Shown here: positions 1,635 to 15,077 of the stretch, in pieces
Layout: each line of letters begins with the position of its first letter
Numbering within the stretch: position 1 is the first letter of the stretch
DNA from: a virus
Virus record (IMG/VR): IMGVR_UViG_3300035190_000244
Location: 1 to 33,222 of that record
Strand: one strand, 5' to 3'
Length of the DNA stretch: 33,222 nucleotides
Translations under genes and position numbers: made by a program
Notes under the pieces: generated by a model
What the model was told of the DNA's origin: nothing
Seen by the model: only the letters and a program-made list of their open reading frames with translations
Database searches by the model: none

Positions 1635-1677
1635 TGACCCTCACGCTTTGTCTCCCCTTCCGAAGTCGTGGGGGTCA
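1635..1677. terminator. Candidate hairpin between convergent operons
   Basis: TGACCCTCAC at 1635-1644 can pair with GTGGGGGTCA at 1668-1677, a 10-bp stem with one G-T pair and a 23-base loop. It lies exactly where the plus-strand operon (ending 1618) meets the minus-strand operon (ending 1675). No clear T-run follows on either strand, so an intrinsic terminator is uncertain. The right arm overlaps the last codon of the WhiB gene. Confidence 0.35.
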
Positions 1678-1947
1678 CTTGCGTATCGTGATAGGGGTCG
1701 GGGTGTGAGCCAATGCGTAGCGTTCCCGTGGGGTTTTGCCACCAAACATTCCGAACCTACATTTCTGTCCTTGTTCATACGACATTGCGTACTCTAAACA
1801 TTGTGTGGCGACCTCGCATTGCTGGCAGAACTGTAACGCTTGACGGTACACACTGTCTTGCCCACCTGGGTTGTCAGGAAAGAACACATCTGATGGCACC
1901 CCTCTACAAGATGCTTTCTCTTGCCAGTCGGGTCTGTCCATTATCAT
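1675..1947 (-). CDS. whiB: WhiB-family transcriptional regulator
   Basis: A 90-residue WhiB-like protein. WhiB proteins are small actinobacterial and actinophage regulators that bind a [4Fe-4S] cluster through four cysteines and contact the primary sigma factor. The four Cys are present in the usual order: C14 (KASCRG), C41 and C44 (CQQC), and C50. An FFPD motif follows the first Cys. The usual G(V/I)WGG turn reads GMFGG, with Phe in place of Trp, followed by KTPRERYAL and a short basic end. An open frame continues upstream to 2019, but the ATG at 1947 overlaps the stop of the preceding gene as ATGA and has a GAAAGAGGAAG site. A second ATG lies two codons further. Family assignment is firm; the regulated promoters are unknown. 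Confidence 0.93.
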   Translation of the reverse strand: MIMDRPDWQEKASCRGVPSDVFFPDNPGGQDSVYRQALQFCQQCEVATQCLEYAMSYEQGQKCRFGMFGGKTPRERYALAHTPTPITIRK

Positions 1948-2132
1948 TTCTTCCTCTTTCGTTTTGTTTTTTGTAGGTCGTACAACGCTGTGGTTGTTTT
2001 GTTTTGGTGACACACACACGGGCAGGTGTCGTGTATCTGCTGGCTGTATTTGACTAGGGCACGAGCGACTGTGCCACAGTGCGTACAGTCAGGGTGTGCT
2101 CTGGTGTACTCATACACGCCAGATAGGTACAT
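1944..2132 (-). CDS. Small Cys-rich protein upstream of whiB
   Basis: A 62-residue protein with CTHCG at residues 16-20 and a CPCVCH cluster near residues 37-42, then a basic tail (KTKRKRKK). The Cys/His pattern suggests a zinc-binding module and the tail suggests nucleic-acid contact; both are inference. Its TGA overlaps the WhiB ATG (ATGA), so the two are likely co-translated. It overlaps the upstream gene by 23 bases. I do not recognise a named family. Confidence 0.6.
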   Translation of the reverse strand: MYLSGVYEYTRAHPDCTHCGTVARALVKYSQQIHDTCPCVCHQNKTTTALYDLQKTKRKRKK

Positions 2133-2319
2133 TCTTTTCTACTTCGTCACGCTTCTCTTTGGTTTCGTAGAGGCGCAGTATGTGGATACACGGGTCGTCA
2201 CCATTCTCAAACTCGTTCATCTCGTCATCTGACATTGGGATACCATCGTGGGTTGAGCAGATAGCAGGGCTAATAAACCCTTGTTCTCTACCTATTGAGA
2301 ACCATTCTTCATAATCCAT
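2110..2319 (-). CDS. Hypothetical protein with CSTHDG motif
   Basis: A 69-residue acidic protein containing ICSTHDGIPMSDDE and a second Cys in DDPCIHILRLYE. Short proteins with a Cys-x-x-His-Asp-Gly motif followed by a Cys-Ile/Val-His motif recur in actinophages without known function, as far as I recall. The conserved Cys and His could bind a metal. Its ATG overlaps the ssb stop as TAATG, which fixes the start and suggests coupled translation with SSB. Confidence 0.65.
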   Translation of the reverse strand: MDYEEWFSIGREQGFISPAICSTHDGIPMSDDEMNEFENGDDPCIHILRLYETKEKRDEVEKNVPIWRV

Positions 2320-2720
2320 TAGAACGGTTCTTCATCAGACAGGGTTGGCATTTGCTTGCCAATCATCCCGACCTGTGCCATTACCTGACTGGTCTGGTCT
2401 TTCACCCAAGCGTTCCAACGGCAAGACACACCAACTTCATCAGCCACAAGTTTCATTGACTTGCCTTTTGTGCCGTCTTTCTTGGTGAACTCGTCTTGTT
2501 CTAGGCGACCTGAGATAAGTACGGTGTCACCTTTGGCGATACTGTTTGCCACATTTTCTGCGACCTTGCCGAACACAACAACATTGTGCCAGGTGGTTTT
2601 CTTTTTGTCATCTTTACCGTAGTTATCTGCTACTGAGAATGTCAGGATTGCCATTGCGCTGGCACTGAATTTCAGTTCGGGGTCTTGCCCGACTGTTCCG
2701 TGGATTGTGATGTTGTTCAT
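2319..2720 (-). CDS. ssb: Single-stranded DNA-binding protein
   Basis: A 133-residue SSB of the bacterial OB-fold family. It opens with the typical MNNITIHGTVGQDPELKF beta strand and contains the core KKTTWHNVVVFGKVAENV and GDTVLISGRLEQDEF segments. It ends in the acidic tip DEEPF used by SSBs to recruit replication and repair partners. The length is a little shorter than bacterial SSBs because the disordered linker is brief. It coats ssDNA during phage replication and recombination and fits with the exonuclease and annealing protein at 7212-8890. A TAACAAAATG junction precedes it, with a GGAGGGGT-type ribosome site. Confidence 0.95.
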   Translation of the reverse strand: MNNITIHGTVGQDPELKFSASAMAILTFSVADNYGKDDKKKTTWHNVVVFGKVAENVANSIAKGDTVLISGRLEQDEFTKKDGTKGKSMKLVADEVGVSCRWNAWVKDQTSQVMAQVGMIGKQMPTLSDEEPF

Positions 2721-2724
2721 TTTG

Positions 2725-3378
2725 TTACCCCTCCTGGAGTGTTATAAAAGGCAAAGGTATATCTACCCCTGCATTGTTTGTTCTTCTAACCATTGATACC
2801 AACTTAGGGGTGTTTACATCAGGACCGAACGCAAGATACGTACCGTCTGTTGAGTCAATACCCCACTGTTTTGCTAATACCATACGTTTGAAAGAATTTA
2901 CTCTGCCCATATGTACCCATATAGAACGGGCTTTTGCTTCTGCACAAAAGATACGGGCAGTATTAGAAAGTTTGAAATCTGTTGTCCCACCAATAAATAA
3001 ACAACCCATTGTTTCCCACGGGGTTGTTTCCATTTTAGCACCATCTTGTAATACAAACGCTGGTTTGTATCCCAATGATGAAACCATTGTGTGATATTCA
3101 GACCATCGTTCAACCGTTTTGTCGTGGTCTGCAACTACATCTGGAACAGTTGCGAACAATGCTTTGTCTGGTGATGAATGACCTTTGAGCCATTTGAGCC
3201 AAACCTGTTCATCCCATTTTTCAGCAAAGCAACCGTTGTCTGCTGCCCATACCCACTGGTGTGGAGAACTTTTACTGTTGCGTTGGCTGAATGGTGTCAG
3301 CATCAAACCAATCCCATTGTCGTGCAATTCTTTTTGCATATCAGGATTTGAAGGCAGGCAGCCGCTTAGATAAATCAT
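2725..3378 (-). CDS. dpdA: DpdA-like 7-deazaguanine transglycosylase (DNA base exchange), short form
   Basis: A 217-residue protein related to the DpdA / tRNA-guanine transglycosylase TIM-barrel superfamily, which swaps guanine for a 7-deazaguanine base in nucleic acid. Visible signatures: WAADNGCF with a candidate nucleophile Asp47; VPDVVAD at 78-84; FVLQDG at 108-113; FIGGTTDF at 128-135; HMGRVNS at 156-162; and GIDSTDGT at 173-180 with candidate Asp175 or Asp178. It is much shorter than tRNA-guanine transglycosylases and has no visible zinc site. The open frame reaches 3504, but the MIYLSG start at 3378 matches the first beta strand and leaves a 38-base overlap with the transporter gene. 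A GGAGGA lies 19 bases upstream, which is rather far. The neighbouring YhhQ-type transporter supports the assignment. The substrate (DNA or tRNA) is inferred. Confidence 0.75.
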   Translation of the reverse strand: MIYLSGCLPSNPDMQKELHDNGIGLMLTPFSQRNSKSSPHQWVWAADNGCFAEKWDEQVWLKWLKGHSSPDKALFATVPDVVADHDKTVERWSEYHTMVSSLGYKPAFVLQDGAKMETTPWETMGCLFIGGTTDFKLSNTARIFCAEAKARSIWVHMGRVNSFKRMVLAKQWGIDSTDGTYLAFGPDVNTPKLVSMVRRTNNAGVDIPLPFITLQEG

Positions 3379-3880
3379 TTGATATCCAAATAAGTAGTCC
3401 TCCGAGCAAAGCCATTTCTGTTTTGCCAATGACTTGTCCTTGCCAATACATTGTTGAACCAAATGCAATCTGCAAAAAGATAAATGAGTCAATGAATCCA
3501 CCAATTACACCTGATGAAATGACTGCGCCGACCAATGTTTTGTCACGCAGTTTTGTGTAAACAAGGAAATCTGCTAGTTCTCCACAAGCAAATGCAATAG
3601 CACTGGCAGTGGCAACTGCTGGATTCACTGCGTAGGACAACAACACGCCAACGGCAATAGCAACAAGTGTTGCTTTGCGCCCGTAAACATTTTGTACTAT
3701 GTCACGCAAAAACATAGCGATTCCAATCATCAACACACCAGAGGGAGCGTTGTAACCAAACCCAACGGGGATGGTGTGTGGACCACCAGGAAAATACTGT
3801 GTTCCTACGTTAGAAATCATCCAGTTAGCAACGGGGATGGTTGCTAAGTACAAAATGATAAGTGGTATTTTTTTGTTCAT
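3341..3880 (-). CDS. yhhQ: Queuosine-precursor transporter, YhhQ/VUT family
   Basis: A 179-residue polytopic membrane protein with about six hydrophobic segments. Family hallmarks are FLRDIVQNVYGRKATL near residues 57-72, ASAIAFACGELADFLVYTKLR, and SSGVIGGFIDSFIFLQIAFG. YhhQ-type proteins take up preQ0, preQ1 or related 7-deazaguanine precursors. The ATG at 3880 has an AAGGAAGAAAGAGA site and overlaps the stop of the upstream small gene as ATGA; the open frame before it (to 3937) is highly charged and is unlikely to be translated. Being joined to a DpdA-like gene, it probably feeds precursor from outside the cell to base exchange. Confidence 0.9.
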   Translation of the reverse strand: MNKKIPLIILYLATIPVANWMISNVGTQYFPGGPHTIPVGFGYNAPSGVLMIGIAMFLRDIVQNVYGRKATLVAIAVGVLLSYAVNPAVATASAIAFACGELADFLVYTKLRDKTLVGAVISSGVIGGFIDSFIFLQIAFGSTMYWQGQVIGKTEMALLGGLLIWISNDLSKRLPAFKS

Positions 3881-4074
3881 TCTCTTTCTTCCTTCTTTTG
3901 TTGGAGACTTATTATTCTTCTTGCCCGTTTTTGGCAAGGGTGTTGTGGTGGTTCAGGTAACGACACAAATGTTGTTACTGTCACGCCACAGTTGGGGCAG
4001 TGCCACTCTTGTCGTAATGAAATGCCCTTCATTGGATTTAGAGTATACCCTGGGTGTGTCTTAGTCAAGCGCAT
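3877..4074 (-). CDS. Small CxxC protein between PP-loop gene and transporter
   Basis: A 65-residue protein with HCPNCG near residues 25-30 and a later HPCQ, then a basic, charged tail (KRARRIISLQQKKEERE). The CxxC plus His/Cys pattern suggests a zinc knuckle. The ATG at 4074 overlaps the end of the PP-loop gene by 14 bases; a TTG two codons earlier is a less likely start. Its stop overlaps the YhhQ start as ATGA. Its position inside the transporter cassette makes a role there possible, but no function can be assigned. Confidence 0.6.
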   Translation of the reverse strand: MRLTKTHPGYTLNPMKGISLRQEWHCPNCGVTVTTFVSLPEPPQHPCQKRARRIISLQQKKEERE

Positions 4075-4834
4075 TTTCAATAATGTCTTCTGCTACCGAA
4101 CAAAGCAAAGAACATTCAAAACTGGCTTCGGTGGCGTGGTTTCCTCTGTCTGGGTCCAGTTCGTCAAGGAACAATCTTTCTTTTTTGTTTCCGTTTCCTT
4201 TTGTAGACCTCAAAATGGACACGTCTAAGTCTCTTTCTAATTTAGCCATACGGTCAAACACTTCAGGAAAATCTTTACGGATTTTATTCCAGTACCCCAT
4301 ACCTCCCTTGGGGCAACCAATGCAGTTGTTGTTTTGATAGCCAAGTTTGTACATAGCAGGAAGTTCTATGCCTGCCCTGTCAACCATAGATAAACAGTCC
4401 TGCTTTGAAAGACCACGCTCTATCAAGGGAGTGCGAAGATTCACTTCAGGGTTTTGTTCTCTGAATCTGTCTGCACGATGCTGTTCTTCGGCTGTATAAC
4501 CAAACACTTGGATGTCTTCGTGTCGTTGAAATTTTCTGCGCAATTTCTTTTTTAGTTCTGTTGTACACATTGCCCCGTAAGGGGATACAAGGAACCGTGA
4601 TTTTTCCCACACATCCCAAGTGTCAACATATTTTTCTGATTTCAAATATGTGATTGGATGTCCAAACCATTGTTCACATTCAGCCATAAACCGTTTGTTG
4701 TCTTCGTGTTCTGAGCCTGGGTCGGTATAAGCCAGTATCAAATTGTCTGGCTTTTCAGCAATGATTAATTTTGCTGCAACTGCTGAAGCAGCACCAGCAG
4801 AGAACCATACGATTGTGCGATTTGTTGTTTCCAT
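4061..4834 (-). CDS. PP-loop (PAPS-reductase-like) ATP pyrophosphatase enzyme
   Basis: A 257-residue adenine-nucleotide alpha-hydrolase-like protein of the phosphoadenosine phosphosulfate reductase superfamily, which is common in phages. The PP-loop reads FSAGAASAVAA at residues 11-21, a variant of SGGxDS. An acidic segment DPGSEHEDN follows at 38-46. Cys90 (AMCTTELKKK), Cys171 and Cys174 (NNCIGCPKGG) resemble the Cys sets that hold an Fe-S cluster or form reactive thiols in related enzymes. The ATG at 4834 overlaps the preceding stop (TAATG) and has a GGAAAAG site; an ATG at 4852 lacks one. True sulfate assimilation is only one option. Next to DpdA and YhhQ, a nucleobase or nucleotide modification role is possible. 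Confidence 0.8.
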   Translation of the reverse strand: METTNRTIVWFSAGAASAVAAKLIIAEKPDNLILAYTDPGSEHEDNKRFMAECEQWFGHPITYLKSEKYVDTWDVWEKSRFLVSPYGAMCTTELKKKLRRKFQRHEDIQVFGYTAEEQHRADRFREQNPEVNLRTPLIERGLSKQDCLSMVDRAGIELPAMYKLGYQNNNCIGCPKGGMGYWNKIRKDFPEVFDRMAKLERDLDVSILRSTKGNGNKKERLFLDELDPDRGNHATEASFECSLLCSVAEDIIENALD

Positions 4835-5286
4835 TAGCAATTTCTTTTCCATTTTTGTACAAGTTTATGTTGTGATTGACAGATAAATCTTTGAATGGAT
4901 TTACGAGCCTTCAAGCAACCCCATCCCCACGGACCAACTCTCCATACCTTAGTACCATCTGGTTCAATGTGCGACTTGAACGCTATTGCGTCTGCCACCC
5001 TGACCTGTTCTTGTGGGGTCATACCTTTGGCTGAGGAATGATTACTCCACCTACGAAAAGTAGAACGGTGAATCCCTAATCCACCTGTGTAACTACGGGT
5101 TGAGTGGTTCCAGTTCGGTTCGTTCGTGCCAGGTAGCCCTGTCTCACAGGTTCCAAGCGAGTCGTAATAGGCATCCACTAATACACCGTGGTATTTCTTG
5201 TGGCTGTTGTCGTTTTTAGCGTGGGCTGTGGTTGGGGTGGTAGCGATTGTGGCTACCAAGATTGTGGTCAATATGATTTTGCGCAT
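4834..5286 (-). CDS. Secreted Rpf/lysozyme-like (transglycosylase) protein
   Basis: A 150-residue exported protein. It has a signal peptide (MRKIILTTILVATIATTP, likely cleavage after AHA at about residue 23). The body resembles the resuscitation-promoting-factor / small transglycosylase fold: CETG near residue 47 carrying the candidate catalytic Glu, NWNHSTRSYTGGLGIHRSTF in place of the usual YxGGLQFxxxTW, EQVRVADAI, and GPWGWGCLK at the end of the domain. Rpf-like enzymes cleave peptidoglycan glycan strands. The start has an ideal AAGGAGG site. It lies more than 4 kb from the endolysin, so a role in entry, superinfection or host wall remodelling rather than final lysis is possible. Confidence 0.75.
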   Translation of the reverse strand: MRKIILTTILVATIATTPTTAHAKNDNSHKKYHGVLVDAYYDSLGTCETGLPGTNEPNWNHSTRSYTGGLGIHRSTFRRWSNHSSAKGMTPQEQVRVADAIAFKSHIEPDGTKVWRVGPWGWGCLKARKSIQRFICQSQHKLVQKWKRNC

Positions 5287-13199: not shown

Positions 13200-15077
13200 C
13201 TAGTTTTCCGTAGAACGCATTGTAACAGTAGCCGTACCATCCCAAGACCAAGTGTTCCCTGTACTGTCAACAGGGGTCCACTCTACATCCTCAACAATGA
13301 CCGAATAAGAACGGGTACCTAACTGCAAGGTAACAATTTTGGGGCTATGAATCAGACTATTCAGGGTGTCAAGTTCCTGTTCAGGGTCCATATAGATGTC
13401 TCTGTCACGAGGGCGAATCTTTTGGTGCAACAAACAAGGTATGGAAAACACCTCTGAACGGAATGGTGCAGCGTAGGCTCTAGCCATCCACCGTGTCACA
13501 ATAGGGCTTACATTGTCGGTAGGGGTTAGAACCAGTTTGAACCCTGCCTCAATAGTTTTGACATCTGAACCATTGTATGTGTATTCAATATCGTTGGCTG
13601 AATTGAACGTGCCGAGGGAGGCATAGTCGGATTGGTCGTTCTGAAGTAACGCTTCAACTGTGCCATCCAAAGGTTCAGTACGGACATCCATTTTTGCTAC
13701 GAACTTACGGTCAGGAATACCCCAACGGTAGATACCGAACTCAATGTTTCCTGTGCTGACAAGAGCATCAACATCTTCAGCAACAACACCAACACCAGAA
13801 ATAGCAAACAATCGTTTGCTGTCAAATGTTGTTACTGATTTGACTGCTGCCGTACTTGTATACATCAGGTCAGTAGCGAAAGCAGGGGTGTTAGGGGCGA
13901 TATATACAGATAGGTCAAGGCGACCTAAACCACTTGATGTTCCGTCATAGTTTGTCCAAGTGAACCAAACATATTTGTCTTCAGCAATGAAATCATTTAC
14001 AGAGCCAGATGTGGGAATCAACGCTCCAGCAAGCAAGTTGTTGTTGGCATCGGCTGTGCAATAACGAACACCTTTGTTAGTGCCGACAAGGATGCCACCA
14101 AGATAGCCATACACACTGCTAACTACTTCACCTACTGGTAGTTCTAAGGCGACAACTGGCAAGTCAAAACCTGTTGCGTCTGTTTTTAAAACAAGTTTAT
14201 AAATGGAAGAACGCACTCCACTGTATGCCCCAAGATAAACTGCGCCTTGTCCTGCTGCTGCTCCAACCCACGTAAGGGTTGCATCGTGAGCCGTACCTGT
14301 ATCTGGATAAAACACTTTATGAGATTGCCCTGTTACCGTACCGATTACATACAGGTCGTGACCTACAGATGCGAAACCCCATCCTTTTGCATAGCCGAAA
14401 CCTGTGTATGTTTTACCTGAAGAACCAGACGAAGGATAAAACAAAGCAACAGATGCCGACCCTGGAGTGGTGTAATAAATATCGTTACTTGTGTACCCAA
14501 TAAAAACATTTGTTCCGTTAGTTTCCAACGCTGTAATAGCCGTACCTGGCGAACCTGTAGTTACAGAAGTCCAAGTAGGGGAAGAAGCAAACGGGTTCGT
14601 GCTGTACTTCAACGTAGCGTTATCTGCCACATACACATACTCTGTGCCGTTAGATGCTTTGACAGTACACATAAACAAGTTAGTTGACGCTGAAGACAAA
14701 GAAAGTTTAGTTGCGTGATGCAAACTGAACTGTCCTTTAACCCACGGGTTTATACCTTTAGATTTATAGAACCTGTAATCTTGTGCTTCAGCCGTGTCAG
14801 AATATTGTTGTCCAGCACCATAATGCCAAGAGTCTTGCCCTCTACGCCAAAGCCCACCTGGGTTGATTGCTGCTTCACCAGGGGAAGTTGAATCGTCAGT
14901 GGAGTCACGCACTCGTGGTTCGTGCGACCTGACATACTTACCTGATTTAGTGTCAATAAGGTACGGGCGACCATTGATAGCGACAGGGTAGACGGAAGGG
15001 ACAATTTCGGTTTGGGCTGTGCCATTATAGAACGAGGGTGTACCAACGAAGGAAAGTGTGAACGTGGGAGAAGCCAC
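13200..15077 (-). CDS. Large beta-rich tail structural protein
   Basis: A 625-residue protein starting at GTG, eight bases after an AAGG site. It consists of many short beta strands separated by Gly/Ser/Thr turns, with recurring units of the type YVADNATLKYSTNPF, VFIGYTSNDIYYTTPG and HDLYVIGTVTG, which suggests a beta-propeller or stacked beta sandwich. The C-terminal 200 residues contain IRPRDRDIYMD and a SYSVIVEDVEWTPVDS stretch seen in tail or baseplate proteins. No enzyme motif was seen. Structural tail role is inferred from its position next to the adaptor and fibres. Confidence 0.65.
   Translation of the reverse strand: MASPTFTLSFVGTPSFYNGTAQTEIVPSVYPVAINGRPYLIDTKSGKYVRSHEPRVRDSTDDSTSPGEAAINPGGLWRRGQDSWHYGAGQQYSDTAEAQDYRFYKSKGINPWVKGQFSLHHATKLSLSSASTNLFMCTVKASNGTEYVYVADNATLKYSTNPFASSPTWTSVTTGSPGTAITALETNGTNVFIGYTSNDIYYTTPGSASVALFYPSSGSSGKTYTGFGYAKGWGFASVGHDLYVIGTVTGQSHKVFYPDTGTAHDATLTWVGAAAGQGAVYLGAYSGVRSSIYKLVLKTDATGFDLPVVALELPVGEVVSSVYGYLGGILVGTNKGVRYCTADANNNLLAGALIPTSGSVNDFIAEDKYVWFTWTNYDGTSSGLGRLDLSVYIAPNTPAFATDLMYTSTAAVKSVTTFDSKRLFAISGVGVVAEDVDALVSTGNIEFGIYRWGIPDRKFVAKMDVRTEPLDGTVEALLQNDQSDYASLGTFNSANDIEYTYNGSDVKTIEAGFKLVLTPTDNVSPIVTRWMARAYAAPFRSEVFSIPCLLHQKIRPRDRDIYMDPEQELDTLNSLIHSPKIVTLQLGTRSYSVIVEDVEWTPVDSTGNTWSWDGTATVTMRSTEN

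Follow-up and report, generated by a model that had tools for sequence, protein, structure and literature searches.

A short DpdA-like enzyme paired with a YhhQ-type transporter in phages: a probable 7-deazaguanine salvage cassette

Introduction

Where would a phage that carries a DpdA-like gene obtain its 7-deazaguanine base, if the genes for making that base are not in sight? Most known phage 7-deazaguanine systems synthesise their own precursor. Phages with DpdA and no synthesis genes have been a puzzle, and at least one of them, Orion, gave no sign of modification in the laboratory. The same question is raised by IMG/VR virus record IMGVR_UViG_3300035190_000244 (33,222 bases), the whole of which is called the window below. 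An earlier note on this DNA had proposed that a short DpdA-like enzyme and an overlapping YhhQ-family transporter gene serve precursor import and base exchange instead of synthesis. Here, the proposal was followed up by computational analysis of the window, of related phage loci, and of bacterial genomes.

Sequence record and gene arrangement

The window is a fragment, and its right end interrupts an open reading frame. In addition to the genes in Table 1, a major head protein, tail fibres, RecE/RecT-like proteins, and RusA were recognised among its products. The WhiB-type regulator suggests that the phage has an actinobacterial host. No near-DNA relatives of the window were found in the phage collection.

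The genes studied form a tightly packed row on the minus strand (4852-2319), in the order PP-loop enzyme, zinc-ribbon-like ORF, YhhQ, sDpdA, and SSB, where sDpdA is our working name for the DpdA-like protein. The 3' end of the YhhQ gene runs over the start of the sDpdA gene by exactly 38 bp (3341-3378), the overlap described earlier. The PP-loop gene was indeed located one gene further upstream, with the zinc-ribbon-like ORF between it and YhhQ and overlapping both. Its start is more likely the inner of the two candidates, at a TAATG stop-start junction; through this junction it directly follows an ORF of 150 aa whose product has an apparent signal peptide. After sDpdA the run continues, with a gap of 4 bp, into the SSB gene, and the context is that of DNA metabolism. 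The Rfam scan gave no preQ1 riboswitch upstream of the cassette.

Table 1. Genes in and around the cassette, with positions in the window
Feature	Position	Strand	Remarks
WhiB-like regulator	1675-1959		Downstream of cassette
Single-strand DNA-binding protein (SSB)	2319-2720	-	PF00436, E 6e-25
sDpdA, short DpdA-like base-exchange enzyme (predicted)	2725-3378	-	ATG start, 217 aa; phrog_15826, E 6e-53
YhhQ/Vut_1 (COG1738/QPTR) transporter	3341-3880	-	179 aa; Pfam Vut_1, E 2.5e-13
Small zinc-ribbon-like ORF	3877-4080	-	67 aa; FmdB-like, weak (E 6e-4, below cut-off)
PP-loop (PAPS-reductase superfamily) enzyme, SspD/PptA-like	4061-4852 or 4061-4834	-	Optional cassette companion
ORF of 150 aa	4834-5286		Apparent signal peptide; no family match

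Sequence, kinship, and predicted fold of sDpdA

The motifs by which the protein had been recognised (D47, H156-M-G-R-V-N-S, and G173-I-D-S-T-D-G-T) were all located in sDpdA. A longer form with a TTG start (259 aa) is unlikely; the ATG start, MIYLSG, is common to the relatives. No match was obtained in Pfam or NCBIfam, and the PHROGs match, phrog_15826, is listed as of unknown function. Isolate relatives occur in Arthrobacter, Mycobacterium, and Rhodococcus phages, and part of them are annotated as 'DpdA-like tRNA-guanine transglycosylase'. The small size noted earlier is typical of the group, with a median length of 208 aa vs 308 aa for DpdA1. The gene of Escherichia phage SHIN8 (L096 8001-8446) is annotated as two overlapping frames and may be frameshifted.

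In profile-profile comparison, sDpdA matched DpdA1 with an E-value of 8.3e-7 (probability 92), six unrelated control families gave 0.06-0.8, and bacterial TGT was not significant (0.33). The link to DpdA1 was seen only at this level: sDpdA was not placed in DpdA1 by sequence profile, and an sDpdA profile search of the 9g, CAjan, and nt-1 genomes gave no match. The two families are bridged by RHph_N3_2 gp054, a short phage protein matching both DpdA1 (8e-20) and phrog_15826 (6.7e-5). Nor was sDpdA assigned to DpdA2, as hhalign against nt-1 ORF390, which we take to be DpdA2 on our own identification, gave E 0.3, with lengths of 217 vs 464 aa. The PDB sequence search returned no credible relatives. 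Judged by these profiles, sDpdA and DpdA1 are remotely related, and, because sDpdA falls within neither DpdA1 nor DpdA2, it is treated as a separate short subfamily, presumably DpdA-like in action. The DpdA-like identity given in the earlier note stands as remote homology and not as a Pfam or family-profile assignment.

The active-site elements of DpdA1 are present in order and are invariant or nearly so: D47, PDVV(G)D80-84, GG130-131, H156, and D178. H156 pairs with the DpdA1 histidine that is H196 in DpdA of phage 9g (numbered on the translated sequence). Across 49 diverse sDpdA proteins, the invariant residues were D47, C50, P79, D80, Q111, G130, G131, K136, H156, G158-N161, R165, S176, D178, and G179. 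The nucleophile would be D178 in the register of TGT or D175 in that of DpdA1; of the two, D178 alone is invariant (84/84).

The AlphaFold model of sDpdA, a confident one (pLDDT 93), is a TIM barrel, and among its best matches was TGT 4hvx, with Z 15.1 and an rmsd of 3.1 over 201 residues. Other barrels tie with TGT (pyruvate-kinase barrels, Z 16.1 vs 15.1), and in the plain Foldseek ranking tryptophan synthase and ribulose-phosphate epimerase barrels were ahead. Since other barrels head that list, the fold alone was not taken as proof of identity. With bacterial TGT, sDpdA shares the predicted TIM-barrel fold and neither the zinc motif nor a Pfam TGT match.

The YhhQ transporter

The window YhhQ scored 51.1 bits against Pfam PF02592 (Vut_1), above the gathering score of 27.2, and 40.5 bits against TIGR00697, the NCBI queuosine precursor transporter equivalog, under its cut-off of 50.95. 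Its model (pLDDT 91) has six predicted membrane helices. The best 14 PDB matches of the model were all ECF transporter components, nearly all of them S components (among them RibU and the S components for biotin and thiamine; best Z 9.4), and the PDB sequence search found no relatives. As modelled, the window YhhQ has the ECF S-component fold.

Pairing of transporter and transglycosylase across phages

Among 50 non-redundant sDpdA loci (<85% identical), 41 had a co-oriented YhhQ no more than 414 bp away, mostly overlapping, with YhhQ upstream in 35 and downstream in 6. The remaining nine comprised two with a preQ0-synthesis cluster and DpdA1 instead and seven with neither. In the reciprocal test, single-sequence scans were seeded with YhhQ of phage phiLM21, a phage without sDpdA, and a DpdA-type gene was found within 600 bp in 79 of 80 phage YhhQ loci, the lone exception ending at a contig edge. 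The partner was of the phrog_887 type in 63 loci, sDpdA in 12, and of the phrog_1279 type in 4 (31, 9, and 4, respectively, in the 44 non-redundant loci). A quick YhhQ tree, in which few branches were strongly supported, implied at least nine partner changes. In the phage collection, YhhQ was also present in 17/24 sDpdA records vs 78/50,697 records overall, the records being redundant. Both search sets were collected by homology, which favours closer relatives. The pairing of YhhQ with DpdA-type enzymes is well above chance and recurs in dozens of diverse phages.

Precursor synthesis genes and the salvage reading

FolE, QueD, QueC, and QueE were not found in the 33-kb window, as the earlier note had said, and in a fragment this absence alone proves little. 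No preQ0-synthesis genes lay within 2.5 kb in any of the 80 phage YhhQ loci, and QueD and QueC were absent from all 32 whole records tested, among them the complete isolate genomes ReqiPine5, StevieRay, Aoka, Pam5, and RHph_N3_2; in complete relatives the absence carries more weight than in the fragment. In control DpdA1 loci, preQ0-synthesis genes were present in 69/80 and YhhQ in 13/80; in bacterial dpd islands, YhhQ occurs in about 9% (PMC11888242). The sDpdA gene also accompanies the synthesis pathway in three metagenome contigs and in Sonali, R29Z, and SHIN8, in most cases together with another DpdA of larger size; salvage is therefore not its sole setting. Under their locus handles, sDpdA is combined with preQ0-synthesis genes, and mostly with a larger DpdA1, in L004 (Arthrobacter phage Sonali), L057, L058, L067, L096, and L097.

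The overlapping pair (2725-3880) is read as a salvage cassette, with a probability of roughly 0.7. Through a YhhQ-type S-component transporter, the infected cell would take up a 7-deazaguanine base (preQ0, preQ1, queuine, or a related one), and sDpdA, as a putative minimal enzyme of the tRNA-guanine-transglycosylase fold, would put this base in place of guanine in DNA, presumably that of the phage itself. The modified DNA might then be protected from host restriction. Import and exchange are proposed because sDpdA and YhhQ are coupled, YhhQ is reciprocally paired with DpdA-type genes, and QueD and QueC are absent; on these comparative counts (41/50, 79/80, and 0/32 with QueD/QueC), the proposal of the earlier note is strongly supported. 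We infer the cargo, the exchange reaction, the DNA target, and the benefit of protection from what is known of the families.

DNA or tRNA as target, and the host genomes

The imported base could instead be destined for tRNA, with sDpdA inserting queuine or preQ1 and boosting translation in hosts without Tgt. This would suit the modelled fold, which is that of the TGT superfamily, and the bacterial YhhQ, which serves tRNA queuosine (PMC5372724). It would also suit the bacterial genomes analysed: host Tgt was present in 2/13 genomes with sDpdA and YhhQ vs 16/21 with sDpdA alone (p 0.001, phylogenetically confounded), so that Tgt is missing in most hosts of the paired loci and could be replaced by a phage-borne enzyme. 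Against it, the zinc motif CxCx2C of tRNA TGT was found in 14/14 bacterial TGT and in none of 84 sDpdA or 89 DpdA1 proteins, and the sDpdA profile resembles DpdA1, not TGT. The surroundings likewise point to DNA: a DNA methyltransferase is encoded near sDpdA in four loci that have no YhhQ, three of them on viral contigs and one on a bacterial contig, and SSB directly follows sDpdA in the window. We regard tRNA as an improbable target.

Under the salvage reading, the Tgt pattern fits a module supplying precursor where the host has none, with taxonomy as a confounder. Absence of host QueC was considered as a reason for carrying the transporter, and no association was found (QueC in 5/13 genomes with YhhQ vs 8/21 without). 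Five Nocardia genomes having sDpdA with no YhhQ neighbour carry their own YhhQ beside a chromosomal Tgt. In Cellulomonas sp. KH9 (L314, G003:C2:300000-316000) and in Micromonospora (L315, G031:C60:190000-205000), a weak TGT-like match was seen a few kb or less from a chromosomal QueC, joined in Cellulomonas by a Vut_1 gene; both are possibly separate 7-deazaguanine clusters.

The PP-loop enzyme

The PP-loop protein of the window shares about 50% identity (read off the alignment) with PDB 21fy chain C, 'PptA', across 248 residues; a literature search found no paper explaining this 'PptA'. It matched the PADLOC SspD profile at E 1.1e-18 (a model without curated cut-off) and so counts as SspD-like by profile. 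This was the sole match among the five cassette-region proteins scanned, and no Ssp/Dnd partners were recognised among these five beside the gene in this fragment record. The earlier count of three cysteines was wrong: the protein has seven, six of which (C96, C153, C177, C180, C247, and C251) are invariant in its relatives.

The family of the window protein is common in phages without the cassette, and few of 86 sampled loci had sDpdA. Phages carry PptA/SspD-like PP-loop genes very often (423 matches in IMG/VR; window 4061-4852, L140-L219), with a C5-methyltransferase-like gene no further than 2.5 kb away in 28/87 loci. One contig, L156, independently repeats the window order PP-loop-YhhQ-sDpdA. 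PP-loop genes of several subtypes were found at most 1.3 kb from sDpdA on the same strand in about ten loci vs 0/80 DpdA1 loci (p 0.001-0.003), the flanks being shorter in the DpdA1 control. The sDpdA loci with such a neighbour are the window, ReqiPine5, Aoka, L010, L012, L025, L053, L055, L106, L124, and L156, and five of the six neighbours tested matched SspD at E 1e-13 to 1e-17. L012, a contig related to the window, also has a Type II hammerhead ribozyme at 14515-14576.

The enzyme might be integral, the cassette making a sulfur-containing deazaguanine or coupling base exchange to backbone phosphorothioation. We think this unlikely: the enrichment near sDpdA and the SspD matches would agree with it, the former weakened by the shorter control flanks, whereas most cassette loci have no PP-loop gene, the window's family is common outside the cassette, and the subtypes differ. 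A core role is accordingly not supported by the loci, and neither, given the enriched neighbours, is a gene wholly unrelated to the cassette. The place in the cassette given to it earlier is thus retained as that of a neighbour and not of a core part; we read it as an optional, variable companion, at a guess for a separate thio-modification.

In a further reading, sDpdA would take 7-deazaguanine out of the DNA of the host or a competitor, by hydrolysis or reversal, as a counter-defence against Dpd islands, and YhhQ would handle the freed base. This is very improbable: it might account for the second DpdA1 beside sDpdA in some phages, which simple insertion does not explain, but the His and the conserved Asp/Gln/Gly pocket are as in an exchange enzyme, and the swapping of partners with two further families of DpdA type suggests that all have the exchange role in common.

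The salvage reading could be extended, as a doubtful wider picture, to a transporter-led module in phages of several bacterial phyla, in which three or more transglycosylase families can stand in for one another and by which phage DNA chemistry is tied to environmental 7-deazaguanine; in the window and some other phages, the SspD/PptA-like enzyme would add sulfur and the DNA would be doubly modified.

Comparison with known systems

Phage DpdA1 systems (9g, CAjan, and Rosebush) place preQ0 or archaeosine in phage DNA. Like them, sDpdA is of the predicted TGT-superfamily base-exchange type, lies in a phage DNA-metabolism region, and keeps the DSGA-like, LDxIGD-like, GG, His, and Asp elements in order; CAjan, like the window phage, also has YhhQ. 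Unlike them, sDpdA is shorter and normally has a transporter as partner instead of FolE/QueD/QueE/QueC.

E. coli YhhQ (COG1738/QPTR) is a preQ0/preQ1 transporter. The phage form resembles it in the Vut_1 score above gathering, the six predicted helices, and the modelled ECF S-component fold, and differs in being short (179 aa) and under the TIGR00697 cut-off. SspD belongs to a single-strand phosphorothioation system; the window PP-loop protein is similar to SspD and to 21fy 'PptA' in sequence, with Ssp/Dnd partners not recognised beside it.

A DpdA-like gene without synthesis genes, as here, is known from the 'DpdA-only' phages (Orion, Salmonella 7-11, MED16, and cluster B1 mycobacteriophages), for which precursor from the host or by import has already been proposed (PMC6884629, PMC8306585, PMC9584339); a dedicated transporter next to the gene, as in the sDpdA cassette, is not described in those papers. 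The closest measured case, Mycobacterium phage Orion, has DpdA, no synthesis genes, and no detectable 7-deazaguanine (PMC6884629), which counts against the salvage reading. The sDpdA search, made in a set without the Orion record, did not recover this phage. A dedicated importer, where carried, would explain an Orion-type absence simply, since the precursor must then be in the medium, and the question becomes directly testable in the isolates StevieRay and GreaseLightnin (Mycobacterium smegmatis) and Aoka (Arthrobacter globiformis). For phrog_15826 and phrog_4899, which are listed with no assigned function, the pairing of YhhQ with DpdA-type genes is a dependable guide to annotation. A base-exchange enzyme as small as about 200 residues would serve studies of mechanism and DNA labelling.

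Part of this, including a name for the enzyme called sDpdA here, may already be in a 2023 NAR paper or a 2024 7-deazaguanine review. What is new here extends a known kind of system: a short, transporter-coupled subfamily and a general rule by which YhhQ in phages goes with DpdA-type enzymes. The YhhQ of phages was noted by Hutinet et al. (PMC6884629) as uncorrelated with any phage group, whereas in the loci collected here it is a near-obligate partner of sDpdA, phrog_887, and phrog_1279 enzymes.
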